From NCBI GenBank assembly GCA_017511005.1, contig JAFWLP010000028.1, forward strand, positions 1-64,000: a stretch of 64,000 nucleotides of DNA, read 5' to 3'. The notes beneath the pieces were generated by a model that did not search any database, had not been told where the DNA came from, and was given only the letters and a program-made list of their open reading frames with translations. The DNA comes from Clostridiales bacterium (lineage in GTDB: Bacteria; Bacillota; Clostridia; Saccharofermentanales; Saccharofermentanaceae). This document shows positions 4,533 to 24,658 of this stretch, piece by piece (the stretch's first letter is position 1; each line of letters opens with the position of its first letter). The translations under genes were made by a program, and so were the position numbers.

Positions 4533-4567
4533 AGGATAATTCTAGCGATGGGGCAAATAATGTTCAC
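4533..4567 (-). promoter_or_regulatory. shared-box promoter, copy 1
   Basis: On the minus strand the box (4548-4567) ends TTTGCCCCAT; nine bases later comes TATCCT (4533-4538). It drives the 4092-4511 gene. This copy begins GTG, not ATG. Confidence 0.6.
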
Positions 4568-4571
4568 AAGA

Positions 4572-5153
4572 TTAGACTGCCTTGATGTTTTCCGTCAGGA
4601 TGCCACAGACTTCACCGTTTTCGTTAAATTCCTTAACGATCCGCTTCACCTTTATGTTTCCCAAACCATAATTGCTGCAAACATAATTCATCGACTTCTT
4701 TTCATGACAGCACTTGATTACCACCAGAGCGCTCTCGATACTCTGATCCGCCATCTGACTGACTTTATCCCAGAACTGACCCGTTAATCCCGAACAGTCA
4801 GGATCCGCACATCCATTCGGCAGAAACCGGATGCCAAGCGTTCCTGAATAATACTCACCTATCAGTTCGCAGGCTCTGTGGATGTAACGCCTTAAAGACC
4901 TTGGCGTATAGTGTGTCCTTCTTGCCACTTTAATCTCGGAATAGCAGGACTCGAGATATGCCATTGCCGCTTTATACTCGTGATCACGCATATTGCCGGC
5001 TGCATACGCCAGCGCATCACTCAGTTTATCCCTGATAAATGCATAAGTGACAGCATGTCCGGCAAAACCGTGATCGGCAAGCTTTCTTACAGTTTCATTT
5101 AAAAGACGCGGCCTTCTGAACAGGTCTTTTACTGTGCAGGCAAAGACAATCAT
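4572..5153 (-). CDS. hypothetical protein
   Basis: 193 residues, basic N-terminal half, no membrane segment, helical in character. It contains scattered cysteines (CADPDCSGL near residue 113 and CCHEK later) but no clear zinc-binding pair, and I do not recognise the family. Its ATG overlaps the stop of the upstream gene (ATGA), so the two are translationally coupled and probably act together. Both depend on the box promoter at 5607-5641. Confidence 0.65.
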   Translation of the reverse strand: MIVFACTVKDLFRRPRLLNETVRKLADHGFAGHAVTYAFIRDKLSDALAYAAGNMRDHEYKAAMAYLESCYSEIKVARRTHYTPRSLRRYIHRACELIGEYYSGTLGIRFLPNGCADPDCSGLTGQFWDKVSQMADQSIESALVVIKCCHEKKSMNYVCSNYGLGNIKVKRIVKEFNENGEVCGILTENIKAV

Positions 5154-5563
5154 GAATGGACCTCTATAAGATCGGGCCTGCTAATCCGGAATACCGGTTC
5201 CAAAGAGTAAAAATATTCTTCAATGGAGATCTGACCGTCAATGATCTCTTCCTTATTGTTTGTTTCCAGAAAAGAATCCACCCGGATCCCGTATCTTCTA
5301 ATCAATACGCATTTTAGTGACTTGATCATGCTCTCATACCAGCCTTTTGACGAACAATCCGATATAGACGGATAGCTCGGATTGATCCACACCGATACAG
5401 GCAATACTTCATATTTATATCTTTCAATCTTCTCACGAAAATCTATTTCTTCGATGCAGTCGTTATATGAATCAATCCGCATCAGGAGATCGCAGATTTT
5501 TTCCCAATCTGAACAATCGCGGATTCCGCGCAAATAAACTTTAAATATCGTAAGGTATCTCAT
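5150..5563 (-). CDS. hypothetical protein, first gene of a coupled pair
   Basis: 137 residues from the ATG at 5563 (MRYLTIFKVYLRG...). The open frame runs further upstream to 5797, but this start is chosen because AGGAG lies 8 nt before it and because the box promoter at 5607-5641 would start transcription downstream of the earlier candidate codons. No family recognised; there is no membrane segment. The stop overlaps the next start by ATGA, which indicates coupling to the 4572-5153 gene. Confidence 0.65.
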   Translation of the reverse strand: MRYLTIFKVYLRGIRDCSDWEKICDLLMRIDSYNDCIEEIDFREKIERYKYEVLPVSVWINPSYPSISDCSSKGWYESMIKSLKCVLIRRYGIRVDSFLETNNKEEIIDGQISIEEYFYSLEPVFRISRPDLIEVHS

Positions 5564-5606
5564 AGGGGCAACTCCTGAAAACTCTGGTTTATTCTTTCCC
5601 AAATTC

Positions 5607-5641
5607 AGATTAACCTTTGCCATGGGGAATTTATGCCCCAT
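5607..5641 (-). promoter_or_regulatory. shared-box promoter, copy 2
   Basis: The box at 5622-5641 is a perfect inverted repeat, ATGGGG-N8-CCCCAT. Nine bases further on the minus strand is the -10 TAATCT (5607-5612). The predicted start of transcription is about 35 bases before the ATG at 5563. Confidence 0.65.
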
Positions 5642-5691
5642 CACACTTATAAGGCGAAAACAAACTGTCATGAGTATAGATATCCCTTTCC

Positions 5692-5726
5692 ATGCGCCAT
5701 TTTTGTCCCATTGAACCCGATAACAT
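5692..5726 (+). promoter_or_regulatory. shared-box promoter, copy 3
   Basis: The box ATGCGCCATTTTTGTCCCAT (5692-5711) is followed after nine bases by TAACAT (5721-5726). It is divergent from copy 2 and drives the broken gene at 5759. Confidence 0.65.
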
Positions 5727-5758
5727 ATCCTCAAACGAGATAATTGGAGGGCGCGATA

Positions 5759-6519
5759 ATGAGAACTACAAAAGATGCGATCAAAAAGTTCAAGCATATC
5801 TGCTGGTATCCTTCGGCAGGAAAAGACTTAAGGCCGCTGTTGTTCATATCTGATTGGAATTACAAGAAGAACAATGTACCAATGGATGAAGGCCAGGAAT
5901 TTCCGGATCTTTTCATTCTTACGGACCTTTGCGGGTTCTTTGACAGTTATGGGGACTCCGATTGTTTAGGTGATGCCTATTATCAGCTCAATGATGGGTT
6001 CTGCGAACCGGGTTCCAGCCTGATCACGTATCGTATAAGAACAGTTCAACAGAGATCATCGTAAAGAAATTCGAGAAGCTGCAGGATCTCGATCTTCCTT
6101 TTAATCCGAAGTATGCGGCTATCGAGAAAGCATCTGATTACAATTCATCAATCCTGCTCAATGTTGAGGCAGTGTCACGGATCGATGATGTTGTTAACAG
6201 ATACAAGACATCGATCCTTTATGTGGCAGCTCTGAATGAGTATTTCGCCAACGATTTCCTCATTCCCAACGGGATTAGGACAGAATACCAGGTAATCGTG
6301 GCTTACGGTGGTTTCGGTGGTGGCCATTACGGTCCTCAATGGATTCCTCAGAAATATAAGGAATTTGGAACAAAGTATATTATTGGTTACGACTATGGCT
6401 GGCACCATCTGTCAGAAGACTATCCTGATAAGCCCGCTCCGCACTTTGAAGCACTTTACTGGATTGACGGAAAACAATGGTCTAAGGATATTCCGGTTAT
6501 CTGGTTCAGGCTTACGTGA
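5759..6519 (+). pseudogene. frameshifted gene of unknown function
   Basis: The ATG at 5759 has GGAGG upstream and opens a 101-codon frame ending at 6064. From about 6030 a second frame is open and runs without a break to 6519, with a sequence that reads as natural continuation. One small frame change near 6030-6060 would join them into a protein of about 250 residues. No slippery heptamer is visible at the junction, so a mutation or sequencing error is more likely than programmed frameshifting. The N-terminal part has the string ICWYPSAGKDLRPLLF, which I have seen in clostridial proteins of unknown function; the C-terminal part has YGGFGGGHYGP. Driven by box promoter copy 3. Confidence 0.65.
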
Positions 6520-6541
6520 TCACTAAGCACAAGTAAAAGAG

Positions 6542-6576
6542 ATGTGACATATTTGTCACCCGCACTGCAATATCAT
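6542..6576 (+). promoter_or_regulatory. shared-box promoter, copy 4
   Basis: The box ATGTGACATATTTGTCACCC (6542-6561) is the most divergent copy at its right end but holds an internal repeat GTGAC/GTCAC. TATCAT follows after exactly nine bases (6571-6576). It drives the 6622 gene. Confidence 0.5.
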
Positions 6577-6621
6577 AAAAACGAAAACAAAAACACATTT
6601 GAAATACAAAGGAGGTGTACC

Positions 6622-6906
6622 ATGGCAGTTACAGAGTTAGTCAGAGTTCATACAGCAAAAAAGCCTGATAAAAATTATGTTGAAAATCCTGCTATCGTCA
6701 AAGTTGCAAAGCTTGCTTTGATCCTGGCAGACAAGGACACTGACATCGATACGAAGTGTCTTTGTGTCAAAGCACTCGAAATATTTGAATACATTACCCC
6801 GGAGGAAGCAACTCAGCTCCTTATGTACAGAACAAATCTTGAAAGATTTTTCGATGATATCGAAGATGATGAAGACGACAAACAGGATACTGCAACTCCC
6901 TCTTAG
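6622..6906 (+). CDS. small acidic-tailed hypothetical protein
   Basis: 94 residues from the ATG at 6622, chosen because AAAGGAGG lies 5 nt upstream; the frame is open further upstream but has no other site. The body is helical and ends in a run of Asp/Glu (FFDDIEDDEDDK). No family recognised. It ends with TAG, which shows that TAG is an ordinary stop codon here. A hairpin terminator (6940-6963) follows, so it is a single-gene unit under box promoter copy 4. Confidence 0.75.
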   Translation: MAVTELVRVHTAKKPDKNYVENPAIVKVAKLALILADKDTDIDTKCLCVKALEIFEYITPEEATQLLMYRTNLERFFDDIEDDEDDKQDTATPS

Positions 6907-6939
6907 AGTTGCTAAAAGCATTATCTAATGTATCAGAAA

Positions 6940-6963
6940 GGGCATTTGACGATGCCCTTTTTT
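6940..6963 (+). terminator. Rho-independent terminator
   Basis: The stem GGGCAT/ATGCCC with a 6-nt loop is followed by six T. It ends the 6622-6906 transcript. Confidence 0.85.
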
Positions 6964-7032
6964 GCCGCACGAGAAACGATAATATACTTACAGGAAGATA
7001 ATGTTTTTGAATTGATCAAGGAGGCAAATAAC

Positions 7033-7287
7033 ATGGAAGAGAAAGAGCCGGGCTTCCCTGCCAACTGGGATGAGATCTGCTATGAAATCATGAAAAACAT
7101 CCTGATCGCCAAGTTCTCCGTTCCGGAGTTAAAAGACAAATTGAAAGCCACAGGTGATGCGGTTCTCATTGAAGGCAATAATCATCATGACAACCGCTGG
7201 GGCAACTGCATTTGTGACAGGAGCAAGAATAAGGAAGGACAGAATTGGCTCGGAAAGATCCTTATGGAAGTGAGGGATACATTATGA
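7033..7287 (+). pseudogene. NADAR-family protein, 5'-truncated copy
   Basis: 84 residues from an ATG with AAGGAGG 8 nt upstream. It matches only the C-terminal part of the NADAR (YbiA/RibX-like) family: the KATGDAVLIEGN segment, the DNRWG motif, and the closing WLGKILMEVRDTL. The N-terminal half, including the EAAFQAQK region of the active site, is missing. The family hydrolyses N-glycosidic bonds of riboflavin intermediates or removes ADP-ribose from guanine. This fragment is unlikely to be active alone. It is closely similar to the gene at 7417, whose C-terminus is lost instead. Confidence 0.75.
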
Positions 7288-7318
7288 GTTGGCTGTGTTA
7301 TGTAATCACCGTTCAAAT

Positions 7319-7343
7319 GCCGCTTCTTGCAAGCGGCTTTTTT
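7319..7343 (+). terminator. Rho-independent terminator
   Basis: A perfect 7-bp stem GCCGCTT/AAGCGGC with a 5-nt loop is followed by six T. It closes the truncated NADAR unit just before box promoter copy 5. Confidence 0.88.
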
Positions 7344-7344
7344 A

Positions 7345-7379
7345 ATGGTCAGATTTTGTCCCATGCCAATCGTTAATAT
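7345..7379 (+). promoter_or_regulatory. shared-box promoter, copy 5
   Basis: The box ATGGTCAGATTTTGTCCCAT (7345-7364) is followed after nine bases by TAATAT (7374-7379). It drives the second NADAR gene at 7417. Confidence 0.65.
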
Positions 7380-7416
7380 ATGTGTAGAAAACATAAAGAA
7401 AGCGGGGTTGTTTATC

Positions 7417-7836
7417 ATGGAAAACAATAATGAGATTCGAGTAATTGAAGAATTCAAGGGAGATTACAGATTTCTCTCGAACTTCTACAACAAGAGTGAT
7501 TTTGAATTTGAAGGTTTGACTTATCACTCTTCCGAGGCAGCTTTCCAGGCTCAGAAGTGTTCAACCGCAGAGGAAAAGATCAAGTATACAGAAGTAACAA
7601 ATCCGGTGGTTGCAAAGCGCATGGGCAAAAAGGAACCGGGCTTTCCTTCCAACTGGGATGAGATCAGCTATGGGATCATGAAGAGAATTCTCATGGCAAA
7701 GTTCTCCGTTCCGGAACTCAGGGAAAAGCTTAAGGCAACAGGTGATGCAGTTCTCATCGAAGGCAATAAGCATCATGACAACCGCTGGGGTAAATGCATG
7801 TGTGACAGCTGCAAGAATAAGGAAGGTCAGAATTAG
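7417..7836 (+). pseudogene. NADAR-family protein with in-frame TAG
   Basis: 139 residues up to a TAG at 7834-7836. The N-terminus (FLSNFY, then SSEAAFQAQK) and the NRWGKCMCDSCKN segment are intact and typical of NADAR N-glycosidases. After the TAG the same frame continues LGKILMEVRDSV to a TGA at 7873-7875, exactly the family's normal end; the sister copy at 7033 has TGG (Trp) at that codon. A TGG-to-TAG change therefore removed about 12 residues, and residual activity is uncertain. The start has GGGG 10 nt upstream. Confidence 0.8.
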
Positions 7837-7871
7837 CTCGGAAAGATTCTTATGGAGGTAAGAGATTCAGT

Positions 7872-8121: not shown

Positions 8122-8724
8122 ATGAAATATAGTGAATATACAGAACTCATAAAAGACATACCCTGCACAGAGTCTCTCAGATACTTCCAGTACAAGAGCT
8201 ACTGGCCGGCAATCGTCATGGGTGATAACGGATCCTCGGAAATCATAAAGATTCCCCCGCGCACAGTCATTAACGGAAACGATGTCGGAGTATCCGGCTT
8301 TACAACCAATGCCTTTAAGGATAATACAAATATCACCGATCTGATATTCACACGGCTTGATCCGGTCTTCATGGGACCTGTATTATTCTGCGGCAGCTTT
8401 TCCGGTGCTTTGTCAGGCTGCAACAACCTCAGAAGGATTACTATTCCGCGAAGCATCACGATCATCGGGAAAGGCACTTTCAACAATTGCAATAATCTCG
8501 AAGATATCTACTACGAAGGTTCCGTCGAAGACTGGAAGAAGATCAAAATAACTCACGAGAAATATGAGGTCGAGTTCGGCCAACAACTGCCCGGCATGCC
8601 CGTTTGCGAGAAGATTGATGAAAGATTAGTACATATTCCGGGTAATGATGCGCTCTTCACTGCCAACATTCACTTTAACTGTAATCTTATGGAATTGTAC
8701 AGTTCTGAAAAATGTGTTAAATAA
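8122..8724 (+). CDS. leucine-rich-repeat (LRR_5/BspA-like) protein
   Basis: 200 residues. The middle carries two or three BspA-type repeats, recognisable from LSGCNNLRRITIPRSI and GTFNNCNNLEDIYYEG, the usual pattern of a repeat ending in 'F.NC.NL..I'. Such proteins present a curved beta-solenoid surface for binding; most are surface proteins, but this one has no signal peptide or anchor, so it is probably cytoplasmic. It is short for the family. The ribosome binding site is weak (AGGA 14 nt upstream). Confidence 0.75.
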   Translation: MKYSEYTELIKDIPCTESLRYFQYKSYWPAIVMGDNGSSEIIKIPPRTVINGNDVGVSGFTTNAFKDNTNITDLIFTRLDPVFMGPVLFCGSFSGALSGCNNLRRITIPRSITIIGKGTFNNCNNLEDIYYEGSVEDWKKIKITHEKYEVEFGQQLPGMPVCEKIDERLVHIPGNDALFTANIHFNCNLMELYSSEKCVK

Positions 8725-8739
8725 AACAAACTTCAAAAA

Positions 8740-9279
8740 CTATTCAATTATCTGCCAGCGTTCGTATTTACCCGAATCGCCGCAGCTGGAGGCACGAGCA
8801 TAACACTGCCTGTTAAGTTCAACTTTTCGTTTCACATACCAGTCTGGCGCAAACAGACCGAATTCCCTGCATATAACCTGATAGACAAGACTGTTGGGAA
8901 CATAGAACGGATTCTCCCAAACAACTTTGTCGCTCCTTCCTGACATGCGGAGAACTGCGGCTGCAACAGCAGGACTTCTGGATCCGCCTTTCGAGCAGCA
9001 CACATAAAGATCAGTGACCTCCTCAGGCAAATGGCGCAGGAACCTGATGATCATCCTGGCATGGGCTCCTCTTATGGACATCGGATGGTCCGGATCCTCC
9101 ACATCAGCAAAAGGCACAATACATTTCTGTTCATCAGGGAACAGACTTAAAAACTTGTTATCCCTTTCGGTACATGCAATGATCGCACACCGGCTCATCG
9201 GAATGTCAAAGACTTCCGGACTTATCGCAGGGATTGCAAGGATATGGATGATGTATTTCTTGATCTTATGTTGACGCAT
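8740..9279 (-). CDS. protein-tyrosine-phosphatase-like protein (CX5R)
   Basis: 179 residues. The string VCCSKGGSRSPAVAAAVLR contains a CX5R phosphate-binding loop (C-SKGGS-R) followed by Ser-Pro and a helix, as in cysteine-dependent phosphatases. An aspartate-rich stretch near residue 60 (FADVEDPDHP) could supply the general acid. It is likely a small cytoplasmic phosphatase; the substrate (protein, nucleotide or RNA) is unknown. Proteins of this shape often travel with mobile or conflict-related islands. The start codon has no strong ribosome binding site, so the true start is uncertain. Its upstream region (9282-9310) has at most a degenerate version of the shared box. Confidence 0.75.
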   Translation of the reverse strand: MRQHKIKKYIIHILAIPAISPEVFDIPMSRCAIIACTERDNKFLSLFPDEQKCIVPFADVEDPDHPMSIRGAHARMIIRFLRHLPEEVTDLYVCCSKGGSRSPAVAAAVLRMSGRSDKVVWENPFYVPNSLVYQVICREFGLFAPDWYVKRKVELNRQCYARASSCGDSGKYERWQIIE

Positions 9280-9583
9280 AATTTAATCTACCACTAATTG
9301 CCAAATTATGATCATCCCTTTGCTTATAATCTATTCGAAAACATCTTGTATAATTCCCCTAACCCGCCCTCGTCAACCGGTTAACAATTGGTAGTAAATC
9401 GTAAATCATCGTGTATAAACAGGTGTTGCGTACAGCTTGATTTGTCGTAGGGACTTGAACCCTTCTATTTCCGTGACCTTTATGATCTCAGCCTCTGCTG
9501 CTCATTCACTGCCTATACAGTATGAGCGGATCATTCTCATCCGCTAAGAGATCTTGTTCACCCCGGCCTGACTACCTGCATTA
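9280..9583. other. gene-free stretch with tRNA-like fragment and hairpin
   Basis: No convincing gene. GGGTTCAAGTCCC (minus strand, 9450-9462) is identical to the T-arm core of the tRNA-Ala at 2268, and TTTGTCGTA sits directly beside it at 9441-9449. I could not complete a cloverleaf: no matching 5' acceptor strand is found upstream on the minus strand. A perfect 7-bp hairpin (AGCGGAT/ATCCGCT) lies at about 9525-9546. This may be the remnant of a tRNA gene or of an integration site. Confidence 0.4.
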
Positions 9584-10039
9584 TCAAATCAATTCCGTTG
9601 TCCAATTGAGTTCCTGAATCTTATCGTCCAAAGTCCTGTATTCCTTGCAAAGGGCATCAAGTTTCTCCTGCAGTTCGGCAACAGGGACTGTGCTGTAGAT
9701 CCTGACTTCGGACTTAGTATAATAACGGTCTATAAGATCGCTAGACTTTAAGAGAAAACTCTTCATTTTCTGGATTTTGCCCAGAAGACATTCTCTTTTT
9801 GCCAGAAGCTCAACCAATGAGACATCACCGCACATCGTCACATCATTTGTGTGATTGATCTTTGCTATAAGCACCTCAAGGCGTTCATAGCAACTGTCCA
9901 ACTCCCTGATCAAAGCATTTGGATCTTCAGTCGGCTTCTCGCCTTCCTGTACTTTTGCGTTTTTGTTCAGTCTTGCTGCCAGATCTCCAATCTTTTCCTG
10001 AAGATCTGCTCTTTCAGATAATGCTAATGCCAATTTCAT
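9584..10039 (-). CDS. DIP1984-family protein
   Basis: 151 residues from the ATG at 10039, which has AAGGAG 9 nt upstream and matches the usual family N-terminus (MKLALALSERADLQEKI). The conserved VQEGEKPTEDP motif, the long alpha-helical body, and the C-terminal 'DDKIQELNWTTELI' are typical of the DIP1984 family, which includes the so-called septicolysins. It is a coiled-coil protein with no established biochemical role. It starts one base after the preceding gene's stop, so it is co-translated with the 10041-11099 gene under box promoter copy 6. Confidence 0.9.
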   Translation of the reverse strand: MKLALALSERADLQEKIGDLAARLNKNAKVQEGEKPTEDPNALIRELDSCYERLEVLIAKINHTNDVTMCGDVSLVELLAKRECLLGKIQKMKSFLLKSSDLIDRYYTKSEVRIYSTVPVAELQEKLDALCKEYRTLDDKIQELNWTTELI

Positions 10040-10040
10040 A

Positions 10041-11099
10041 TCATTCATCTCCTTCCACCGGGAATCCGGCCAATTTCAATCCTTCTTTCGTATAAAGCGC
10101 GGGAACAGCCGAGGATAAGTATTCTTCCAGCATGATGCGGTGATATCCTGCAAGGAGCAAATCTAACGAATCACCGAGTTCTCCCTTAAGCCAGTTGCTT
10201 ATGGGCTTAAGCACACGGTTATAGCCTTTCAGTTCCCCACGGTAGTATTCCGCATCCATATAGTTCCACCAGACTTCGCTGTATACGCCGCGGTATCCGC
10301 TGACCCATTCCACATTGGCTGCATAGCCGCAGATGTTCATATCGGATATATCTCCGTGTTCACGGCGCTTGCTTATGTATTCTTCTTCGTCCAAACCGTG
10401 TGGAACGATGATGCCGTCTATGACTACCGGATCCCGGTCTTTAGGATGGTAACGGTTGCATATGGCTACAATATCTCCACGCTTAAACGGGACTGGGAAA
10501 TTAAACCAAAGACCGTCAAAAAATGTACTCAGATAATACCAGCGCTCGTTTCCCTCTTTGTCATAATCAGTAGATATCTCTAATATCTCTCCAGATAAAT
10601 TAATATCTACTGTGCCGTGAACAATGCGATTCCCGGTCTCATCAGGCAGCCTTCTATTAATCTCATAAAAAGCCGCGTCCTCAGCATCTTCAGTATTCAT
10701 GATATGAGATATGCATTTTTCCCAGCTTGAGAAGAAACCTTCAAAATCGGATGTTCCCCATTCGGACTTGGCCGAACGTTCGTATCTTCTGTATTTATAG
10801 AGATAACCACCAGCATTGTCTTGGAATTCCTTAATAAAGGTGTTTTCCAATTCCATGTATTCGAGGAGAATCTTATGTATAGACTCTTCTGTGAAATGGC
10901 ATGCCGATCTTCCGCACTCTTTAACTTCCAAATCCGGCATGTTGTCGATTATCCACTGCCATGCCTTGTGCTTCTTTTCAAGAGTTATGCTGTTGCACTG
11001 ATAAACAAGCCAGGCTGCTTCAAGGGAGTTGTATTTATAGCCGGTATCTCTGTGGTACTTCTTAATATCTTTTGAATTTATAAAACTTGAAACATCCAT
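10041..11099 (-). CDS. hypothetical protein
   Basis: 352 residues; ATG preceded by GGAGG at 7 nt. Soluble, rich in Trp and Tyr (for example SEVWWNYMDAEYYRGEL), with no membrane segment or motif that I recognise. The middle (residues about 190-230, WYYLSTFFDGLWFNFPVPFKRG) looks like a beta-rich domain involving 'KRGDIVAI'. It is co-transcribed with the DIP1984 gene downstream, which links it to a family itself without known role. Regulated from box promoter copy 6 at 11121-11155. Confidence 0.75.
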   Translation of the reverse strand: MDVSSFINSKDIKKYHRDTGYKYNSLEAAWLVYQCNSITLEKKHKAWQWIIDNMPDLEVKECGRSACHFTEESIHKILLEYMELENTFIKEFQDNAGGYLYKYRRYERSAKSEWGTSDFEGFFSSWEKCISHIMNTEDAEDAAFYEINRRLPDETGNRIVHGTVDINLSGEILEISTDYDKEGNERWYYLSTFFDGLWFNFPVPFKRGDIVAICNRYHPKDRDPVVIDGIIVPHGLDEEEYISKRREHGDISDMNICGYAANVEWVSGYRGVYSEVWWNYMDAEYYRGELKGYNRVLKPISNWLKGELGDSLDLLLAGYHRIMLEEYLSSAVPALYTKEGLKLAGFPVEGDE

Positions 11100-11120: not shown

Positions 11121-11155
11121 AGTTTAAAACGAGGTATGGGTAAATTTAGGTGCAT
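11121..11155 (-). promoter_or_regulatory. shared-box promoter, copy 6
   Basis: On the minus strand the box ATGCACCTAAATTTACCCAT (11136-11155) is followed after nine bases by TAAACT (11121-11126). The ribosome binding site of the 10041-11099 gene follows directly, so the leader is short. Confidence 0.55.
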
Positions 11156-11321
11156 TAGTACGTTGGTTGCCTGATGCTCTATTTTGACAGCGGTGACATG
11201 GACAGGATGCACGAAGAAGGCAGAATTATCGATGAGATCGATGTGAATAAGGATGATTAAGTTGATAAAAGCAATGCTGTTCTGTTTCAATTTTTCACGT
11301 AAAAAGCGCATTTCAGTCAGA

Positions 11322-11353
11322 TGTACAGAAATGTACACATATGATCTGATAAT
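11322..11353 (+). promoter_or_regulatory. TGTACA operator-like repeat and -10
   Basis: TGTACA-GAAA-TGTACA (11322-11337) is a perfect inverted repeat, the size of a dimeric regulator's site. GATAAT (11348-11353) is a plausible -10 on the plus strand, 10 bases downstream. Transcription from here would enter the tRNA-like structure at 11401 after about 40 bases. Confidence 0.45.
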
Positions 11354-11400
11354 ATGAAATCAAGAGATGCTTGCAGCAGTTTCAGAAGGCATCTTGTACA

Positions 11401-11521
11401 GGATCTGATCCGTTAACGTCATCTGAAGGACGGTGGTTAAAACCCACCCGCACCGGAGCATTGGGACCGTTTCCGGGTGTGTAGCTCAGTCCGGGAGAGC
11501 GTCAGTGGCAGGATCAGATCC
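11401..11521 (+). ncRNA. circularly permuted tRNA-like RNA (candidate)
   Basis: Order along the strand: outer stem GGATCTGATCC (11401-11411); anticodon-stem 3' strand TCTGA (11422-11426); variable loop AGGAC (11427-11431); T-arm GGTGG-TTAAAAC-CCACC (11432-11448); acceptor 3' strand CGCACCG (11449-11455); linker; acceptor 5' strand GGGTGTG (11475-11481); TA; D-arm GCTC-AGTCCGGGA-GAGC (11484-11500); G26; anticodon-stem 5' strand TCAGT (11502-11506); outer stem GGATCAGATCC (11511-11521). Arm lengths are those of a tRNA, and U8, A14, G15, G18, G19, A21, G26, C48 are all in place. Departures: mismatches at 1-72 and 31-39, A instead of C56, and no anticodon loop. Folded by hand. Confidence 0.55.
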
Positions 11522-13609: not shown

Positions 13610-14089
13610 CTACTTAATCGTTATTACCTCAAGGCCATGGTTCTTTGCATACCAGACGGTCTCTTTTGTTCCGCCCGGAGCACCGGTATAAACTCCGATC
13701 AATCTTGATGAGTTGTCGACCATCCAGTGATTTCTGTCAAAGAAAGCAGCTCTGCCCGGTTTCTTGCTCACATAAACAATATTGTCGGAACCCATGAGGA
13801 TCCTGGTATATCTCTTCTTCCACTCCGGTTCCCAGTCTTTTTCCATGCCGTTCCAGGCACATGCGGAAATAAGATGAACCTTCTTCCCTTCTTTCTTGAG
13901 ATTAATTACTATCTCGGCAGCCCAGATATCAACGCCTCTCTGCATACCTGAGATAAAGTCTGTATAGCCGGCCTCTACGGCCTTTCTTATCTGCTCTTCG
14001 AGCCAGGAAATTACCTTTTCCTCACTCATATCAAGTCTTTCGGGTCTGTGTCCCGTAAAGGAACACGCATGCTTAATATCAATTTCCAT
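13610..14089 (-). CDS. SLOG-family (DUF1273/YpsA-like) protein
   Basis: 159 residues from the ATG at 14089, chosen for GGAG 6 nt upstream. The N-terminal SFTGHRPERL motif and the FISGMQRGVDIWAAE segment are hallmarks of the DUF1273/YpsA branch of the SLOG superfamily, a Rossmann-like fold thought to bind nucleotide-derived ligands; some SLOG proteins sense signals in conflict systems. The C-terminal part (IGVYTGAPGGTKETVWYAKNHG) is also typical. It is the first gene of a three-gene operon and has the box promoter with the best -10 (TATAAT). Confidence 0.9.
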   Translation of the reverse strand: MEIDIKHACSFTGHRPERLDMSEEKVISWLEEQIRKAVEAGYTDFISGMQRGVDIWAAEIVINLKKEGKKVHLISACAWNGMEKDWEPEWKKRYTRILMGSDNIVYVSKKPGRAAFFDRNHWMVDNSSRLIGVYTGAPGGTKETVWYAKNHGLEVITIK

Positions 14090-14138: not shown

Positions 14139-14173
14139 ATTATAGGAGGTACCATGGGTTAGAAATGTCCCAT
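14139..14173 (-). promoter_or_regulatory. shared-box promoter, copy 7
   Basis: The box ATGGGACATTTCTAACCCAT (14154-14173) has inverted ends ATGGG/CCCAT. After nine bases comes a perfect TATAAT (14139-14144, minus strand). From CATTTCT to TCGAG it is almost identical to copy 8, 5 kb away. Confidence 0.8.
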
Positions 14174-17234: not shown

Positions 17235-19253
17235 TTACGCACAGAATCCGAACTTAATAGGCTTAATTCTCTGAACCGGCATTTCTATATCAGATGCAAC
17301 TATTGTCTTGAGATCTTCGTTGCTTACACTGGCATAATCCATTGCTACGAGTCTTGATGCCTGAGCCATCTTTGCTTTTTCGAGGACATTGCGGACATAT
17401 CTGCCGTTGCCGAAGTCATCATCCTTTATGGCAAGTTCAAACATGTCGCGCATCTTCTCACGCGCATCTTCTGCAAGGATCAGGCCTTTTTTCTTCGAGA
17501 TCAGATCTGCGATGCCGCAGAGTTCTTCAACGGTGTAATCATCGAATGGAACGTGGTAAGCGATTCGTGATCTAAGGCCGGGGTTTTTCTGTAAGAATTT
17601 CTCCATCTTATCGGGATATCCGGCGAAGATGACAACTACGTCATCACGGTGATTCTCCATTTCCTGGACTATTGTATTAATTGCCTCATCACCATAGGAA
17701 CCATTTCGATCATCTACCAGAGAATATGCCTCATCAATAAAGAGAACACTTCCTTCGGCTTCCTTGAATTTGTTCTTTATCGCAGGAGCTGTCCATCCTA
17801 CATATCTGCCGACAAGATCAGCTCTGCCACACTCAATGAGTCTACCCTGAGCTAGGACATCGTTATCCTTCATTATCTGTGCGAAAAGCCTTGCCACACT
17901 TGTCTTGGCGGTTCCAGGATTGCCGGTGAATATCATGTGCATGGATGTTCTGTCGAACTGCGCACCTTTGTTTGCAAAAATCTTCTGCGCCTTGCTGTAG
18001 TTCAGAGCCTGCTTAATTACTTCCTTGGCCTTTTTCAGACCGATCATATTCATAAGCTCATCGTACGCATTTCCTCTGGGACCATCATTTATGATCTCGC
18101 ATTTAACAGTTGAAATGTTCTTATACTGTGGGAAAAGAACTGTCTTGAGTTTGTTTGAATACCAGAAGTTGTACATATCATTCAGTTCAGAAGTCAAATA
18201 GTATTTGCCATTCTCCAGATTCTCGAAAAGTTTCTTGTCTGTTCTTACCTGCTTCTCGCTTGCTATGAGTTTAAGGTACTCTTTTGCCTTCTCTAAATCT
18301 GCGGCTTTATCACATATCTCTACAATATTGATATTTTCGAGTCTTTCGTAAATAAGCTTTCTCGTTGTTTCACTTTTCTTAGGGATCCAGATTATCGTAA
18401 GAACATCATTGGCGTTTTCCTTCAGCATTGAACAAAGTATCTCGATATTTTCCATTCCTTGCGAAGCATAATTACTTTCCCTGTCATTACTGTAATTGAC
18501 CTGAACCAGAACCGTACCACCCTTCCCGCTCGTATAGATAGGTTTGAAATCATCTGTCGAGCACTTGGCGCGAGATTTAAAACCTATGGTCGTATATCGC
18601 CTGCTTAACAGTCTGTTATTTGCATACAGGCTGCCGACAAGCACTTCAGCGATCTTTACGCTCTCTTCCTTGTTGTCACTTCGGATCAGATAATGTACCG
18701 GGTGTCCTTTAACATATTTTTTCTTACTGCAGGACGAGATCCTCTCCAGTTCTTCGTTCAGCGATTCCCTTACCATAAAACAGCTTGTGCCGTTCAATGT
18801 TGTTTGAATACCATGGTCCTCGATCAAATACTCCATATATGCGAAGCTTGTTGAGCCATACTCGCGTCCATCCATACAGCTGATATCAAAATTACGCAGG
18901 ATCTCATCGGCATCTTCAACATAATCAGAGCGATCTGCATTTATTATCATCTGATTGATTACTTTAAAAACAACTTCATGGTATTCAACATCAGATACTT
19001 CAACAGACAGCTTGCGGATAAACTCGTTTATTTGCTGATCTATTTTCCTGTTATCGTCACATATAAGCCCGATATCGATATTGTTTTTTGATACGCCGGA
19101 AACGAAAAAGAATCTTGTTCTGTTAGAGCGTTCATACAGTTCAACACTAAGAGCCGAGAGTTTATTTCTTTCAATATAACCGCTGTGTCCGCCTTTCATC
19201 TTATCGGCAAACTCTACATCTGCTATCTTTCCCGTAATCTTGTAGTAGAACAT
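17235..19253 (-). CDS. CbxX/CfxQ-type AAA+ ATPase with long N-terminal region
   Basis: 672 residues from the ATG at 19253 (GGAGG 7 nt upstream). The C-terminal 260 residues are a CbxX/SpoVK-type AAA+ module: Walker A FTGNPGTAKTS, Walker B SVLFIDEAYSLV, sensor 1 VVVIFAGYPDKM, arginine finger region NPGLRSRIAYH and a lid domain. The first 400 residues are not recognised; they may form substrate-binding or partner-binding domains, with an inner segment (LTIIWIPKKSETTRK) resembling a degenerate Rossmann-like fold. Relatives remodel protein complexes, for example Rubisco activases and the EccA component of type VII secretion. No secretion genes are nearby. Driven by box promoter copy 8. Confidence 0.88.
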   Translation of the reverse strand: MFYYKITGKIADVEFADKMKGGHSGYIERNKLSALSVELYERSNRTRFFFVSGVSKNNIDIGLICDDNRKIDQQINEFIRKLSVEVSDVEYHEVVFKVINQMIINADRSDYVEDADEILRNFDISCMDGREYGSTSFAYMEYLIEDHGIQTTLNGTSCFMVRESLNEELERISSCSKKKYVKGHPVHYLIRSDNKEESVKIAEVLVGSLYANNRLLSRRYTTIGFKSRAKCSTDDFKPIYTSGKGGTVLVQVNYSNDRESNYASQGMENIEILCSMLKENANDVLTIIWIPKKSETTRKLIYERLENINIVEICDKAADLEKAKEYLKLIASEKQVRTDKKLFENLENGKYYLTSELNDMYNFWYSNKLKTVLFPQYKNISTVKCEIINDGPRGNAYDELMNMIGLKKAKEVIKQALNYSKAQKIFANKGAQFDRTSMHMIFTGNPGTAKTSVARLFAQIMKDNDVLAQGRLIECGRADLVGRYVGWTAPAIKNKFKEAEGSVLFIDEAYSLVDDRNGSYGDEAINTIVQEMENHRDDVVVIFAGYPDKMEKFLQKNPGLRSRIAYHVPFDDYTVEELCGIADLISKKKGLILAEDAREKMRDMFELAIKDDDFGNGRYVRNVLEKAKMAQASRLVAMDYASVSNEDLKTIVASDIEMPVQRIKPIKFGFCA

Positions 19254-19295: not shown

Positions 19296-19330
19296 ATTAT
19301 AGGAGGTGGCATGGGGCAGAAATGACACAT
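19296..19330 (-). promoter_or_regulatory. shared-box promoter, copy 8
   Basis: The box ATGTGTCATTTCTGCCCCAT (19311-19330) is followed after nine bases by TATAAT (19296-19301, minus strand). It drives the AAA+ ATPase gene. Confidence 0.8.
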
Positions 19331-19352: not shown

Positions 19353-19949
19353 TCACTTTACACGTCTGAACTTCTCTCCTTCATACTTACGTACCGGATT
19401 GCCTCTGACGATCTCAGTATGCTTCTGCCAAGCACTGTTCAAAGCTTCAGCGTTGTTATCTTCCTGCTTTGCTGAAAGAATTCCCGCCAAGCGTTTCATA
19501 GCGCGAGTTTTATTCTGCACCTGGCTTCTTTCCTCTGTGCATGCAACAACGATACCTGTAGGCTTATGCGTGATTCTTACGCCAGTCTCAACCTTATTTA
19601 CATTCTGGCCGCCTTTGCCGCCGCAGTGCATTGTGGTTATCTCACAGTCTTCAGGATCAAATTCACCTACTTCTTCAGCTTCCTTTATCACATGCACGTC
19701 TATATACCAGTTCTTACGCTGATGGCCCGGTCTTATGGTACTCTTCCACACCCATAAGACCGTTCCTTCAAGCGAAGATACATCACCATCGAATTCCATA
19801 ACCGCTGACTTGTAACCGTTGCCGGAATAGTCAGCGTTTACGGATACGATACGTGAACCATCAAACTCTTTGAGGAGGGCCTTGCAGAGCTTCTCCACTC
19901 CGGCGGAGCACTCGACAGGTCCCTGTCCCGAACTTATCTGAATCAACAT
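19353..19949 (-). CDS. prfH: peptide chain release factor homologue PrfH
   Basis: 198 residues. The [21 protein letters not shown] region holds the GGQ motif that triggers peptidyl-tRNA hydrolysis; the stop-codon recognition domain of RF1/RF2 is absent, as expected for PrfH. PrfH releases peptides from ribosomes whose 16S rRNA has been cut at the decoding centre, making the rRNA accessible for resealing by RtcB. The gene begins three bases after the rtcB stop with GAGGTAATT as binding site, so the pair is one operon. This matches the described RtcB2-PrfH systems that protect from colicin E3-type ribotoxins. Confidence 0.95.
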
Positions 19950-19952
19950 TAA

Positions 19953-21071
19953 TTACCTCACTTTGCCTGCCTTGAAGTTATATACAGGCTTTACGATTTC
20001 TTTGATTTCAACCGTATCTTCGATCACAGACATGATCTCATCGATTCCGCGGTAAGCCACAGGCGCTTCATCCAGCGTATCAGCACTTATGGATGTGCTG
20101 TAGATACCCGTCATGTCTTTCTTAAATGCAGATACGGTATAACCATTCTGTACATCCAATCTCTTGATCTTGCGGCCTGAACCGTGCGGTGCAGAATAAT
20201 TCCAATCAGGATTGCCTTTACCAATACCCAGGATCACTCCGTCACGCATGTTGACCGGGATTACTACCTTCTCACCTTCAAGGGCAGATGCAGCGCCTTT
20301 GCGAAGAATATGCGTTCCGTCAGGAAGTGTCGAAATATAGTTATGAACGGATTCATACCGCTCCTCTTCCTTCCACTTCATGCCCTTCAGGATCTCTTGA
20401 AGGATGATCTCACGGTTAAGTGATGCATATGCCGTTGCGATCGCGGCATCGTGGAGATAGTCTTCCATCATGGGACCTTCCACATAAGCCATCTCATACG
20501 GAACATCCCTACCCATGTTAACGAGCCTTCTTCTGGCATTCTCGGTGTAATAGTCAGCAACTTCAACACCCAAATGACGGCTGCCCGTATGGATTACTAT
20601 GTAATATCCGTCTTCGCCTTTATCGACTTCGATGAAGTGATTTCCGCCGCCCAAAGTTCCAAGGCTCTTTAATGCTTTGTCTCCGTTAACCGCACGTAAG
20701 CATCTGAGGTCAGAGATTACATCGAAGGAAGCCTTGTTATGCGGAGCTTTGCGGATTGCAAATCCTGCCGGAACGTTCTCTTTTATAACCTTATCTAGCT
20801 TCGGGAATTCGATGTTCCTTACCTTGATCTTGGAGACCAGCATACCGCATCCGATGTCGATACCCATGAGCTGAGGAATAACCTTGTAACCAACCGTCAT
20901 GGTAAGCCCGATGGGACCGACCTTGCCCGGATGGCAGTCCGGCATTATCCGTACTTTCGAATCAAGAGATATATCGTTGTCGCAGATCATCTTGATCTGT
21001 GCTTTGGCGTAGTCATCAATGCTCGAAGCATATATTACCGCCTCAGCGTAGTTACCTTTAATAGTGTCCAT
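19953..21071 (-). CDS. rtcB: RNA-splicing ligase RtcB (PrfH-associated type)
   Basis: 372 residues from the ATG at 21071 (AAAGGA upstream). Active-site elements are visible: DIGCGM (metal-binding Cys), LGGGNHF, HTGSRHLG and APHGSGR, whose His is the site of guanylylation in characterised RtcB. It joins 2',3'-cyclic phosphate or 3'-phosphate ends to 5'-OH ends using GTP and Mn2+. At about 370 residues it is shorter than the tRNA-splicing RtcB (over 400), as for the RtcB2 type that partners PrfH. A sigma-A-type promoter and a short leader ORF lie upstream (21166-21300). Confidence 0.96.
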   Translation of the reverse strand: MDTIKGNYAEAVIYASSIDDYAKAQIKMICDNDISLDSKVRIMPDCHPGKVGPIGLTMTVGYKVIPQLMGIDIGCGMLVSKIKVRNIEFPKLDKVIKENVPAGFAIRKAPHNKASFDVISDLRCLRAVNGDKALKSLGTLGGGNHFIEVDKGEDGYYIVIHTGSRHLGVEVADYYTENARRRLVNMGRDVPYEMAYVEGPMMEDYLHDAAIATAYASLNREIILQEILKGMKWKEEERYESVHNYISTLPDGTHILRKGAASALEGEKVVIPVNMRDGVILGIGKGNPDWNYSAPHGSGRKIKRLDVQNGYTVSAFKKDMTGIYSTSISADTLDEAPVAYRGIDEIMSVIEDTVEIKEIVKPVYNFKAGKVR

Positions 21072-21165
21072 AATTCTTTCCTTTCTTTTTTCGAAAGGGC
21101 ATGCAAATAAGACCTCAAAGAGGTGCATCATTATGGATCACGCTTGGAATAGATTAATCAGATAA

Positions 21166-21300: not shown

Positions 21301-21445
21301 CACCCGTCAATTAAAGACACGGATAATTGCGCGCGAATCTGCTTTGTGCAGCCATAAATCCAAACATGGTCTGATTAGGTATCGCAAACAACGGCCGGCT
21401 GATGCACGACCGGTCTATGATTATCAGTATATTCTGTCATGATAG

Positions 21446-21829
21446 TTACCTCGTGTGCTCTCTAACCCAAATCAGAAGATCCTCATAATCTTTTCCTTCG
21501 CTGCCGGATGCAACGGAATAGATGATATCGGCGAACTCCTTATTTGTTGAATCAATCGAATAACCATTAAGTTCAAGCAGCGTTAACAGTGCCAGTGCTC
21601 CGATCCGCTTATTCCCGTCGTGGAAAGGATGATTACCAATAAGACCGTATCCAAAACGGACTATCTTATCCATATCGGTCGGATAGAGATCCTGCCCCGC
21701 AAAAGTCTGGAAAGGAGCCTCCAGAGCGGAATCTAAAAGTCCCTCATCACGGACACCGTAAGAACCGCCGTAACGGTCGTAAATGCATTTATGCAGGAGT
21801 AAAACCTGTTCTTTGGTTAACGTGATCAT
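21446..21829 (-). CDS. doc: Doc-type toxin (Fic fold)
   Basis: 127 residues. The Fic signature HPFHDGNKRIG is complete, and the start (MITLTKEQVLLLHKCIYDRYGGSYGVRDEGLLDSAL, here only summarised by its first residues) matches the death-on-curing family. Doc phosphorylates elongation factor Tu and halts translation. Its ATG overlaps the stop of a 34-codon gene (ATGA), the expected place of an antitoxin. The gene is the last of a minus-strand run reaching back to box promoter copy 9. Confidence 0.92.
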   Translation of the reverse strand: MITLTKEQVLLLHKCIYDRYGGSYGVRDEGLLDSALEAPFQTFAGQDLYPTDMDKIVRFGYGLIGNHPFHDGNKRIGALALLTLLELNGYSIDSTNKEFADIIYSVASGSEGKDYEDLLIWVREHTR

Positions 21830-21930: not shown

Positions 21931-21967
21931 TATTCTTTATCCTTTTAGGGCTTCCGACAGTCTCTCT

Positions 21968-22435: not shown

Positions 22436-22490
22436 AATTACATCCTTTTCATCACATAACAAAATCTTACTTAACAATAAGCACGATCAA

Positions 22491-22745
22491 CTAGTCATCA
22501 ATCCTTATCTGCTCCATCCAGAGCTGAAGGAGTTTTTCGCCTAATGCCTTATGTTCATTCGTGTCCATGCATTCGGTGTCAGCTATCCATGTTGTTTCTT
22601 CAGGTTTTTCTTGATCGTTATGATCAGTGGTAATGCAATATTCACCGAATCCGATATCAGAACTCCATCTGATAATTATTCCTTCCCAACATGGTATAAC
22701 ACTGTCTATACGAAGATTTATTGATTCTACTTTTTCTTTTTTCAT
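22491..22745 (-). CDS. small hypothetical protein
   Basis: 84 residues from the ATG at 22745, with GAGGTG 6 nt upstream. No membrane segment; WEGIIIRWSSDIGFGEYCI looks like a beta-hairpin. No family recognised. It is the first gene after box promoter copy 9 and may head a unit that includes the 21968 gene and the Doc pair. Confidence 0.6.
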   Translation of the reverse strand: MKKEKVESINLRIDSVIPCWEGIIIRWSSDIGFGEYCITTDHNDQEKPEETTWIADTECMDTNEHKALGEKLLQLWMEQIRIDD

Positions 22746-22809
22746 TTTAGTCACCTCATAATTCTCAAATGCTGATACTTGCTTGAATAGTCTTCATTCA
22801 TCTATACGA

Positions 22810-22844
22810 ATTATGCGCTGACCCATGAGACATTTTTAACCCAT
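22810..22844 (-). promoter_or_regulatory. shared-box promoter, copy 9
   Basis: On the minus strand the box ATGGGTTAAAAATGTCTCAT (22825-22844) is followed after nine bases by CATAAT (22810-22815). Its upstream end touches the stop codon of the 22844-23404 gene. Confidence 0.6.
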
Positions 22845-23404
22845 CATATGTATATCGTGTAATCTCTGTTGAACAATTCTCTCGAAATGAGCAGATCAAG
22901 CTTATCTTCACTGATCTTCTCGATAAGCTTTGCCCGCAGCCTTGCTTTGCCGAACTGTGCGTATTTAAATTTCAGGCATTCGTCTCTTATGGTTGCCAGT
23001 TCGCGATACCAAAGGAAACTCAGCTTATGATCTATCTTACGCTTGGGATTCCTGGCTGCAGACTTTACCTCTTCAAAACAGACCTCACCGTCTTTTTCGA
23101 AACACGAGATGATACCCCAGTATTTGGGTATATGCTCTTCAACATGCTTCAGATGACTCTTCCCGACAACAACATAGTTGTAATCGAAATACTTATCGTA
23201 ATCCCTGATCTGACGCTTAAGGCGCGCATAAGAATCAGCATCGCTCTTGATCTCCAGCCCGGTAATCGCATCATCTGTGACCATCATGATATCCGCACGC
23301 GATCTGCCTATCTCCTTCTCTTCGAAGAAGCGAACTTTGCAGAGCTTTAAGTCAAAATATGTGAAGAGCGGCTCTCTTATGTCTTTATCAAGAAGTTTTT
23401 TCAT
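22844..23404 (-). CDS. sce7726-like predicted nuclease
   Basis: 186 residues from the ATG at 23404. The stretch GRSRADIMMVTDDAITGLEIKSDADS has the PD-(D/E)XK pattern (Asp in RADI, Glu-x-Lys in EIK), followed by RLKRQIRDYDKYFDYNYVVVG, typical of sce7726-family proteins. These are predicted DNases often found in genomic islands; a biological role has not been established to my knowledge. The binding site is weak, so a TTG nine codons earlier is possible. No methylase or partner gene adjoins it, so a classical restriction role is not supported. Confidence 0.8.
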   Translation of the reverse strand: MKKLLDKDIREPLFTYFDLKLCKVRFFEEKEIGRSRADIMMVTDDAITGLEIKSDADSYARLKRQIRDYDKYFDYNYVVVGKSHLKHVEEHIPKYWGIISCFEKDGEVCFEEVKSAARNPKRKIDHKLSFLWYRELATIRDECLKFKYAQFGKARLRAKLIEKISEDKLDLLISRELFNRDYTIYI

Positions 23405-23488
23405 TAGGAAGTCCGATACGAAAATAAGCAATGAAGTAATCTACGTGCCGTAATGACATAAGACTAACATTCATTACGTAGTCTTCTA

Positions 23489-23770
23489 TTATCTTATCTC
23501 GCGGAGCTCATCAAGGATCTCAGCCTCTGTATTGTTCTCAACAAATTCCGATATCTCATCCATGATGCTGTCTGCCATCGCTTTGTGCGGAACTATGGCC
23601 GCCACACCGATGACTATGATTTGATGAACGTCCTGCTCATCTATCTCAGCCGCTGACACATGGAATTTGTTCTGGAGCTTTGCAACAAGGCTCTTGACGA
23701 TCATGCGCTTCTCTTTAAGGCTGTGCACCCATGGTGCGTGAAGTTTGAATGTAATAGTTGTTATTTTCAT
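23489..23770 (-). CDS. DUF503 family protein (YlxP-like)
   Basis: 93 residues. The N-terminus (MKITTITFKLHAPWVHSLKEKR) and the LVAKLQNKFHVSAAEIDEQD segment are characteristic of DUF503, a ferredoxin-like fold; YlxP in Bacillus sits in the rbfA-infB region and is linked to ribosome assembly. Here it stands alone among accessory genes, away from infB, so its partner cannot be read from context. Confidence 0.9.
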   Translation of the reverse strand: MKITTITFKLHAPWVHSLKEKRMIVKSLVAKLQNKFHVSAAEIDEQDVHQIIVIGVAAIVPHKAMADSIMDEISEFVENNTEAEILDELREIR

Positions 23771-23817
23771 TTTCTTCTTAATTCACCCATAAATATATAT
23801 CATTGTTTTATTGTAGC

Positions 23818-24576
23818 CTATTCAATTCCACATATACAATCTATAGGCCTTACCTTGCTGAATACCAGCGAGAACTTATCCCAGTCCATGTCCCTGTGAT
23901 AATGTCCGAAATACCAGTGATCAAACTTCAGATTATGTACTGTTATCAATTCATCCAGGAACTTTGTCAGTCTGTTACCTGATCTGTCACACACACCGGT
24001 CATATTGTCCGCCAGCATTCGTCCGATATCACTGTTATAAACCGGTTTCATATTCTTGCCGATATAGCCTTCTGGTGCACAGTGAGTCAGCACAACATCG
24101 ACTTCGAAATTGACCTTCTCAATGTTTTTAAGAGCTTCTTCATACTCTTCATCGGAAGGCAACTCGCGTGCCCACCAGGAAACGCCTTCTTTACGGTACT
24201 TCTTGTCGGTGGATTCGGCACCGCCCATAACAAAGAACCTTGTATCAAAAATGGTATATACCTGGCCACGCATCAGGTGTATCACACGCTCTGATATCCT
24301 GTGGATCATTCCACCACACCACTCCTCAACAGGGTATTTATTAAGAAGATCATGATTTTCGTGATTACCATCAATAAACAAGGTGGTGAAATTTCTTTTG
24401 TCATACGCCTTGAGGATATACTTATCCTCCTCAGATCCATCCCAAACGCTGCCAAAGTCACCCAATATGATCAGGAAATCATTTTGCGGAGTCATATGCT
24501 TCTGTTCGGGGAAATTTGAAGTATTTATCTTCTCCCAATCTTCCACCCCATGAGTGTCGCCGGTAATGTAGATCAT
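23818..24576 (-). CDS. calcineurin-like metallophosphoesterase
   Basis: 252 residues. All metal-binding motifs are present in order: GDTHG at residue 6, GDFGSVWDG, GNHENHD, VVLTHCAPEG and FGHYHRD. Such enzymes hydrolyse phosphomonoesters or diesters with two metal ions; the substrate is unknown. The ribosome binding site AGGAAGAGG is clear. Transcribed from box promoter copy 10, divergent from the 24722 gene. Confidence 0.92.
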   Translation of the reverse strand: MIYITGDTHGVEDWEKINTSNFPEQKHMTPQNDFLIILGDFGSVWDGSEEDKYILKAYDKRNFTTLFIDGNHENHDLLNKYPVEEWCGGMIHRISERVIHLMRGQVYTIFDTRFFVMGGAESTDKKYRKEGVSWWARELPSDEEYEEALKNIEKVNFEVDVVLTHCAPEGYIGKNMKPVYNSDIGRMLADNMTGVCDRSGNRLTKFLDELITVHNLKFDHWYFGHYHRDMDWDKFSLVFSKVRPIDCICGIE

Positions 24577-24623
24577 TTCTTTATTCCTCTTCCTATTATT
24601 TCTGTAATTCCTGATTCATTCTT

Positions 24624-24658
24624 ATAATATCCGGCACCATGGGACAAAATGCACTCAT
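24624..24658 (-). promoter_or_regulatory. shared-box promoter, copy 10
   Basis: On the minus strand the box ATGAGTGCATTTTGTCCCAT (24639-24658) is followed after nine bases by TATTAT (24624-24629). It drives the metallophosphoesterase gene. Confidence 0.7.

Follow-up and report, generated by a model that had tools for sequence, protein, structure and literature searches.

What reads the promoter boxes that recur at one end of this contig? The stretch analysed, hereafter the window, comprises the 64,000 nucleotides at positions 1 to 64,000 of contig JAFWLP010000028.1 from a Clostridiales bacterium (assembly GCA_017511005.1), and it carries ten 20-bp boxes, each followed after nine bases (N9) by a -10-like hexamer. 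The original prediction had proposed that one undescribed regulator, or else an alternative sigma factor, uses them to control a stress or defence set of genes. From comparisons across genomes, we conclude that the boxes are probably the operators of a transcription factor with a WYL domain, acting as an activator. The ten boxes are listed here with their -10 hexamers, the score of each and the gene behind it; the last line gives the second reading of the last box.

4533..4567, minus strand: box 4548-4567, N9, -10 TATCCT (4533-4538); score 14.2; a gene of 139 amino acids (aa) starts at 4511.
5607..5641, minus strand: box 5622-5641, N9, -10 TAATCT; score 18.4; a gene starts at 5563.
5692..5726, plus strand: box 5692-5711, N9, -10 TAACAT; score 29.5; a gene starts at 5759.
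6542..6576, plus strand: box 6542-6561, N9, -10 TATCAT; score 17.6; a 94-aa gene starts at 6622.
7345..7379, plus strand: box 7345-7364, N9, -10 TAATAT; score 23.4; a NADAR frame runs to 7836.
11121..11155, minus strand: box 11136-11155, N9, -10 TAAACT; score 23.9; a 352-aa gene starts at 11099.
14139..14173, minus strand: box 14154-14173, N9, -10 TATAAT; score 31.9; a YpsA-type SLOG gene starts at 14089.
19296..19330, minus strand: box 19311-19330, N9, -10 TATAAT; score 33.7; an AAA+ (AAA_lid_6) gene starts at 19253.
22810..22844, minus strand: box 22825-22844, N9, -10 CATAAT; score 18.9; an 84-aa gene starts at 22745.
24624..24658, minus strand: box 24639-24658, N9, -10 TATTAT; score 24.5; a metallophosphoesterase gene starts at 24576.
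24639..24673, plus strand: box 24639-24658 in the plus reading, N9, -10 TAATAT; score 24.4; a possible divergent promoter.

The coordinates and strands first proposed hold for all ten boxes, and so do their ends (nine start with ATG and eight end with CCCAT) and their spacing, with TANNNT exactly nine bases after the box in nine cases and CATAAT in one. The further claim that each box lies just 5' of a correctly oriented gene stands for nine, a start codon with a word resembling a ribosome-binding site (RBS) following 21-64 nt after the -10; the NADAR frame behind box 7345 has no clear RBS. Scores were taken with a 35-column matrix made from 93 sites in other genomes, the window sites being excluded, and range from 14.2 to 33.7. 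The only other matches of at least 14 in the window, at 24639 (plus, 24.4) and 5711 (minus, 15.3), are listed boxes in the opposite reading, and twenty 64-kb Markov simulations yielded two such matches in total. The region from 27 to 64 kb had been described as free of boxes; the best score across 24.7-64 kb is 12.1, with nothing reaching 14, and positions 64,001-83,999 of the contig hold no match of at least 8 with this matrix.

Over the whole 1.84-Mb assembly, a search allowing three mismatches found six sites on this contig and six elsewhere. Its backwards control found six in total, which places the matches elsewhere in the assembly at chance level. In relatives, which the suggested search was also to cover, box clusters do occur. 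Chance was considered as the source of the boxes and is rejected on the backwards control and the Markov simulations.

For the relatives, a pattern search with two mismatches covered 115 genomes of the family (84 others from the same genus) and matched in 47. Because the backwards control also matched in many genomes, only clusters were counted; several species show them. We took 19 stretches around pattern matches. A matrix from the ten window sites gave 1-11 matches per stretch and its reversed form 0-2; after iteration the window and the 19 stretches together held 105 sites, with none for the reversed matrix at the same threshold, and the genus consensus reads ATGnnCcAwwTTTggnaCAT-N9-TAnaAT. 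As the stretches were picked by motif, this set serves as a description of the box and not as proof of it.

The box occupies about -41 to -22, and the usual -35 element is depleted: a match to TTGACA of at least four positions in six, at the usual spacing, occurs in 2 of the 105 sites, where about 22 are expected. The -10 hexamers are of the housekeeping type (TATAAT, TATTAT). Spacing was measured on the 69 loci that are more distant (L105-L173, 1.06 Mb, with WYL identity no higher than 54%), using a 20-bp matrix made from the ten window boxes only and containing no -10 columns. This matrix found 74 sites, against 2 when reversed, and TANNNT stood at spacing nine 68 times, both sides counted, compared with at most 19 times at any other spacing. 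The ends of the box had been described as inverted, as for a dimeric protein, and in the 105 sites the outer ATG/CAT is inverted, whereas positions 4-8 and 10 pair below the level that column frequencies predict. A -10-like hexamer lies at nine bases on both sides of 13 boxes in a set of 112 (found with a matrix made from sites chosen for having a -10), the background of TANNNT being 1.6% per position.

An alternative sigma factor that reads box and -10 together as its promoter would account for the exact spacing and the lack of a -35. We consider this very improbable. The box is near-symmetric, though its inner positions are not palindromic in the genus set, its two-sided -10 hexamers are better explained by a symmetric activator than by a sigma factor, the hexamers themselves are of the housekeeping type, and the presence of the box follows one family of WYL proteins, although no search for a sigma gene was made.

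The idea of a WYL protein was first prompted by the spacing of the mycobacterial -26 element, whose consensus is tTGTCRgtg-N8-TAnnnT. When the proteins of 20 box loci were clustered, WYL was the commonest family (12 loci), followed by RtcB (11) and PrfH (10). Pfam finds WYL and WCX in the box-linked family, with leucine-rich repeats in its long members; the WYL domain is present in all 34 aligned members and WCX follows it in 31 (E<=0.01). PADLOC matches the WYL protein to its WYL model. Long WYL regulators (about 740 aa) in which leucine-rich repeats follow WYL-WCX, themselves box-led, are found in L046 (9790-12054), L047 (4787-7009), L048 (15967-18198) and others. A phage origin was considered and rejected: a viral-contig search gave no relative, and the best 10 of 15 matches in a phage collection are at most 27.4% identical.

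One link comes from loci that were chosen by protein only. The WYL alignment was scanned against GTDB species genomes and the best 80 of 155 relatives were taken, in records named Lachnospiraceae, Butyrivibrio, Oribacterium, Anaerostipes, Blautia, Ruminococcus, Oscillospiraceae and others. These 80 loci contain 259 boxes, where the reversed matrix finds 1, with at least one box in 75 of the loci; in 42 a box lies within 250 nt upstream of the WYL gene (reversed, 0). Nine of the loci share DNA with the sources of the matrix. The remaining 71 share none, and still contain 195 boxes (reversed, 1), none identical to a training site, with at least one box in 66 loci and a box within 250 nt upstream of the WYL gene in 33.

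Box and family also occur together across genomes. Among the 115 family genomes, the box (E<=0.1) is found in all 17 with a strong WYL match and in 9 of the 98 others (Fisher 3.6e-14), a strong match being one of at least 400 bits, a line set at a wide gap after the scores were seen; at E<=0.01 the counts are 14/17 and 4/98. Stretches from 14 of these 17 genomes served to train the box model, and the three outside training (G035, G058, G081) have the box too. With stricter filters and E<=0.01, 293 genomes across the class show the box in 6 of 11 with a strong WYL match and in 4 of 282 others; outside the genus the figures are 3/8 and 2/274. Within the genus, 32 short WYL loci (up to about 3 kb, from 30 genomes partly picked for having boxes) show the box with the box-linked family in 9 of 9 cases and with other WYL proteins in 0 of 23. 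One apparent orphan of the set lies at L055 9780 (genome G012), where a box precedes a gene with leucine-rich repeats, its 35-mer is identical in G063, and the genome has no strong WYL match.

A cultured example is available. Among plasmids, a protein search located the family on pCY186 from Butyrivibrio proteoclasticus B316, and the whole 186-kb plasmid gives 13 matches of at least 13 with none reversed: seven promoter-like boxes, five of those boxes in backward reading, and one stray. The seven all lie in 123.9-143.7 kb, around two WYL genes; they are mostly ATGTGC/GCACAT, six start with ATG, and after N9 comes TATTAT, TAATAT or TAAAAT. Matches scattered at random relative to start codons had been named as the outcome that would speak against the boxes, and such scatter is not seen here: 7 of the 13 matches stand 44-134 nt before an annotated coding sequence (CDS) on the same strand, while 10.5% of positions fall in the 200 nt ahead of such a CDS. 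The CDSs behind the boxes are BPR_RS19010 (then PolC), the AAA ATPase RS19030, RS19035, RS19045 (then dnaX), RS19050, the WYL gene BPR_RS19065, and RS19115, an AAA ATPase that is McrB-like by position and is followed by mcrC and the second WYL gene. Viewed by eye, B316 differs both in the half-site and in the recognition helix; we claim no covariation.

Several results weigh against a WYL operator. The counts for the genus (matrix matches, the 105-site and the 112-box sets) come from motif-picked loci, and in the 105-site set the inner box positions are less palindromic than expected. Pfam calls a helix-turn-helix (HTH_11) in only 2 of the 34 aligned members, in which a conserved (D/E)RK[STA] helix can be seen. 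No box of at least 14 lies in the 250 nt upstream of 38 of the 80 WYL genes, and 5 of the 11 strong-WYL genomes in the class-wide set have no box at E<=0.01. Two other plasmids with a WYL relative show no box fitting the rule: on that of Lachnospira eligens, where the WYL gene lies two genes before an AAA+ relative, the best score is 11.8, and the best match on that of Ruminococcus albus scores 14.7 without TANNNT. The genome of the window itself, which is 76% complete, shows no close WYL gene. The relative in its own assembly, on C48, is distant (28% over residues 138-329) and has no box nearby; it is the only one of three WYL genes in the assembly that is related to the box-linked family, and none of the three has a box of at least 9 nearby. 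Collinearity between the related locus L049 and the window runs to window position 5641 and resumes at 5756; the L049 WYL gene (8412-9443) falls within the segment that the window lacks between these points. Box 5622-5641, which L049 also has, is the end of the collinear stretch.

Either the regulator lies in the unassembled quarter of the genome, or the island is decaying. The gene behind box 5692-5711 is in two separate frames (5759-6064 and 6172-6519), and a partial NADAR frame (6928-7287) comes after the 94-aa gene that starts at 6622; the gene split over 5759-6519, with the partial NADAR frames over 6928-7836, makes the island look partly decayed. The host of the window may hold a working regulator or may have lost it; the boxes as a set do not hinge on this one genome.

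Conserved boxes in a genome without a close WYL gene would suit a reading in which another, unrecognised DNA-binding protein encoded by the island is the one that binds the box, with the WYL gene as one target among others. We hold this to be improbable, though somewhat less so than a sigma factor: WYL is the commonest protein of the box loci, and it is the gene most often found directly behind a box, 50 times in 243 compared with 14 for the next, in 80 loci that were, it should be remembered, chosen for having a WYL gene.

How would a WYL protein act from this position? The closest comparison is DriD of Caulobacter crescentus, for which the available part of the account describes a 20-bp pseudo-palindrome that overlaps the -35 at a constant distance from the -10 (PMC12340889). 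As described there, the likeness includes a WYL factor, a poor -35, a site near the factor's own gene and several repair targets; the half-site (ATACGAC/GTCGTAT), the 21-bp consensus, the phylum and the targets differ (PMC12340889). We placed the -10 on the promoters printed in that account, guided by the conserved G-14, and obtained 21 bp, N8 and the -10, with 18.5 nt from centre to -10 against 19 for the Clostridia box; the bapE site fits the consensus poorly (7/14). Similarity of the WYL family to the DriD structure 8tp8 is weak (E 0.002) and covers the WYL/WCX part only. Mycobacterial PafBC, in the accessible text, is likewise a WYL activator working with the housekeeping sigma factor through an element at -26 on a DNA-damage regulon, but it is a heterodimer of which only the PafB helix-turn-helix touches promoter DNA (PMC11804915). 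SiwR of Mycobacterium smegmatis is a homodimeric WYL activator with a 19-bp imperfect palindrome between -35 and -10, although the portion available mentions one adjacent operon and no dispersed regulon (PMC10693628). Of the proposed undescribed regulator, then, a dimer-type regulator is supported, while its class, that of WYL activators such as DriD, PafBC and SiwR, has been described already.

CapW and BrxR, dimeric WYL factors that bind inverted repeats in phage-defence loci, are presented in the available parts of their reports as repressors (PMC9122588, PMC9122601). The same WYL protein might accordingly bind the box as a repressor released by a ligand, and autoregulation through one box would fit. 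We think this unlikely, if less remote than a different binding protein. As far as those reports describe them, the CapW operators overlap the -10 and that of BrxR lies downstream of its promoter (PMC9122588, PMC9122601). Here the box ends 9 nt before the -10, and the depleted -35 and exact distance to the -10 are features that a blocking repressor does not need. The missing -35, together with a geometry like that of the solved promoters of DriD with RNA polymerase, makes activation the best reading.

The activator would belong to a family that many Clostridia of the gut and rumen possess: WYL-WCX proteins with a predicted N-terminal helix-turn-helix, to which leucine-rich repeats are fused in some members. 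A dimer would bind the 20-bp inverted repeat over the place of the missing -35 and recruit the housekeeping RNA polymerase to the -10, which follows downstream at a distance of exactly nine bases. Where a -10 flanks the box on either side, the box would be a divergent promoter, and the frequent box before the WYL gene would mean autoregulation. The trigger is probably a nucleic acid, either single-stranded DNA as in DriD and PafBC or an RNA fragment, and the WYL domain would sense it once damage or attack has occurred; analogy with those two systems suggests the ligand and the damage signal. The output would comprise RtcB-PrfH, NADAR, SLOG, AAA+, metallophosphoesterase and McrBC-like genes, genes of replication and, in some of the genomes, an RNA that mimics tRNA.

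The idea of a stress or defence gene set under one regulator finds support in the genes themselves. Of the targets first named, NADAR, SLOG, AAA+ and metallophosphoesterase genes stand behind boxes, and Fic/Doc would be reached only through a putative operon. The window targets are SLOG (YpsA), AAA+ with AAA_lid_6, metallophosphoesterase, two NADAR frames, Fic/Doc, RtcB and PrfH, and several others have no Pfam match; PADLOC gives the window proteins only weak matches (IetA for the AAA+ gene) or candidate PDC matches. The putative operon behind box 22825-22844 runs through the 84-aa gene, a 169-aa gene, Fic/Doc, rtcB and prfH, with a gap of 315 nt before rtcB:

21446..21829, minus strand: Fic/Doc family gene.
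19953..21131, minus strand: rtcB, Pfam RtcB, under the cut-offs of the NCBIfam RtcB models.
19353..19949, minus strand: prfH, RF-1 domain, TIGR03072 at 164.3 bits, just under the cut-off of 166.65.

Of 13 RtcB genes, 9 have a same-strand box within 1.7 kb upstream, and 4 have one further away or none; the connecting operons are again presumed. The 352-aa gene that starts at 11099 is followed next by a DUF6847 gene (9584-10048), probably in one operon. An open reading frame (ORF) at 24674-25372 faces the plus reading of box 24639; its start must be internal, and our script found no RBS-led start. Beside a dnaB-like gene at the edge of the island lies a tRNA-Ala gene (2268-2342, minus strand), a possible integration site.

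In the 80 WYL loci, an ORF of at least 50 aa starts within 250 nt of the box in 243 of 259 cases, and one of at least 100 aa within 100 nt in 180 of 259, against 91 of 259 random positions. After the WYL gene itself, the commonest families directly behind the box are AAA+/M41-like (14), AAA_lid_6 (12), NADAR-like (7) and SLOG-like (5), with names taken from relatives or given by eye and 69 singletons. A reverse-transcriptase-like gene, again by eye, stands directly behind a box at L133 (box 4537), L143 (3827) and L152 (3545), all metagenome-assembled genomes of Clostridia and Ruminococcus, and may be a retron-like target.

One further box in the window leads to an RNA and not to a protein; no RBS-led ORF lies within 170 nt of it.

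11321..11355, plus strand: box ATGTACAGAAATGTACACAT, N9, -10 TAATAT; score 13.2; conserved before an RNA.
11401..11521, plus strand: possible YrlA-like tRNA-mimic RNA, with T-arm-like, middle stems and D-arm-like sequence inside an 11-bp closing stem.

The stretch behind this box is conserved in G008, G091 and, in a different setting, G016; it occurs in 4 of the 115 family genomes and in no other among 100 sources. All four copies have the box with N9 and a -10:

11321-11521 of the window, plus strand.
6563-6763 of L046, minus strand.
3765-3965 of L054, plus strand.
1459-1616 of L177, plus strand.

We lean towards reading it as a possible YrlA-like RNA. The sole Rfam match of the window copy at E<=10 is YrlA (RF02553), over the full model length (20.3 bits, E 0.096), and the G016 copy matches it over the full length as well (24.2 bits, E 0.13). 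The copies in L175 and L176 have no YrlA match at E<=5, and all copies fall far under the gathering threshold of 69 bits. A structure drawn by hand on the guide of YrlA gives the window copy T-arm-like and D-arm-like stems and 33 valid pairs, and the D-arm-like GUAGCUCAGUCCGGGAGAGC is present in all four. Free folding and the RNAalifold consensus yield the outer stem, the T-arm and the middle stem but leave the D-arm unformed. The fold has only moderate stability (z -2.23), which 3 of 200 shuffles equal; covariation appears at 1 of 54 pairs, the copies being too alike. A TROVE/Ro60 partner gene was found in none of 32 genomes, including the four that carry the RNA.

There is a precedent in Salmonella, whose rsr-yrlBA-rtcBA operon, in the available part of its description, likewise joins RtcB with a tRNA-like Y RNA in a single control that responds to damage; it differs in RtcR control, the Ro60 ortholog Rsr and RtcA (PMC7790460). 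The Clostridia have the WYL box and PrfH instead. It is possible, and we offer it tentatively, that the WYL boxes make up an SOS-like regulon of Clostridia in which one nucleic-acid signal turns on RtcB-PrfH for the repair of rRNA, NADAR and SLOG for the processing of ADP-ribose, genes of restriction and of replication and, in some of the genomes, a Y-RNA-like tRNA mimic without Ro, maybe a decoy for tRNA-targeting nucleases. A literature search, mostly of titles and the starts of abstracts and with few subscription journals, returned no description of this WYL family, its box or its regulon.

WYL regulators are often linked to defence, yet in the literature consulted the sites of most are known from a single operon or a handful. 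With a box that the eye can pick out, tied to one WYL family across genomes named Lachnospiraceae, Oscillospiraceae and Ruminococcaceae, the regulon becomes computable. Given that many targets have no Pfam match, the box may be used to find unknown defence and repair genes, and the box set to test what WYL domains sense in Clostridia. If the reading is true, RtcB-PrfH repair and a Y-RNA-like RNA would stand under one switch outside the RtcR system, and repair and defence genes that seem scattered would look like one co-controlled damage-response set.

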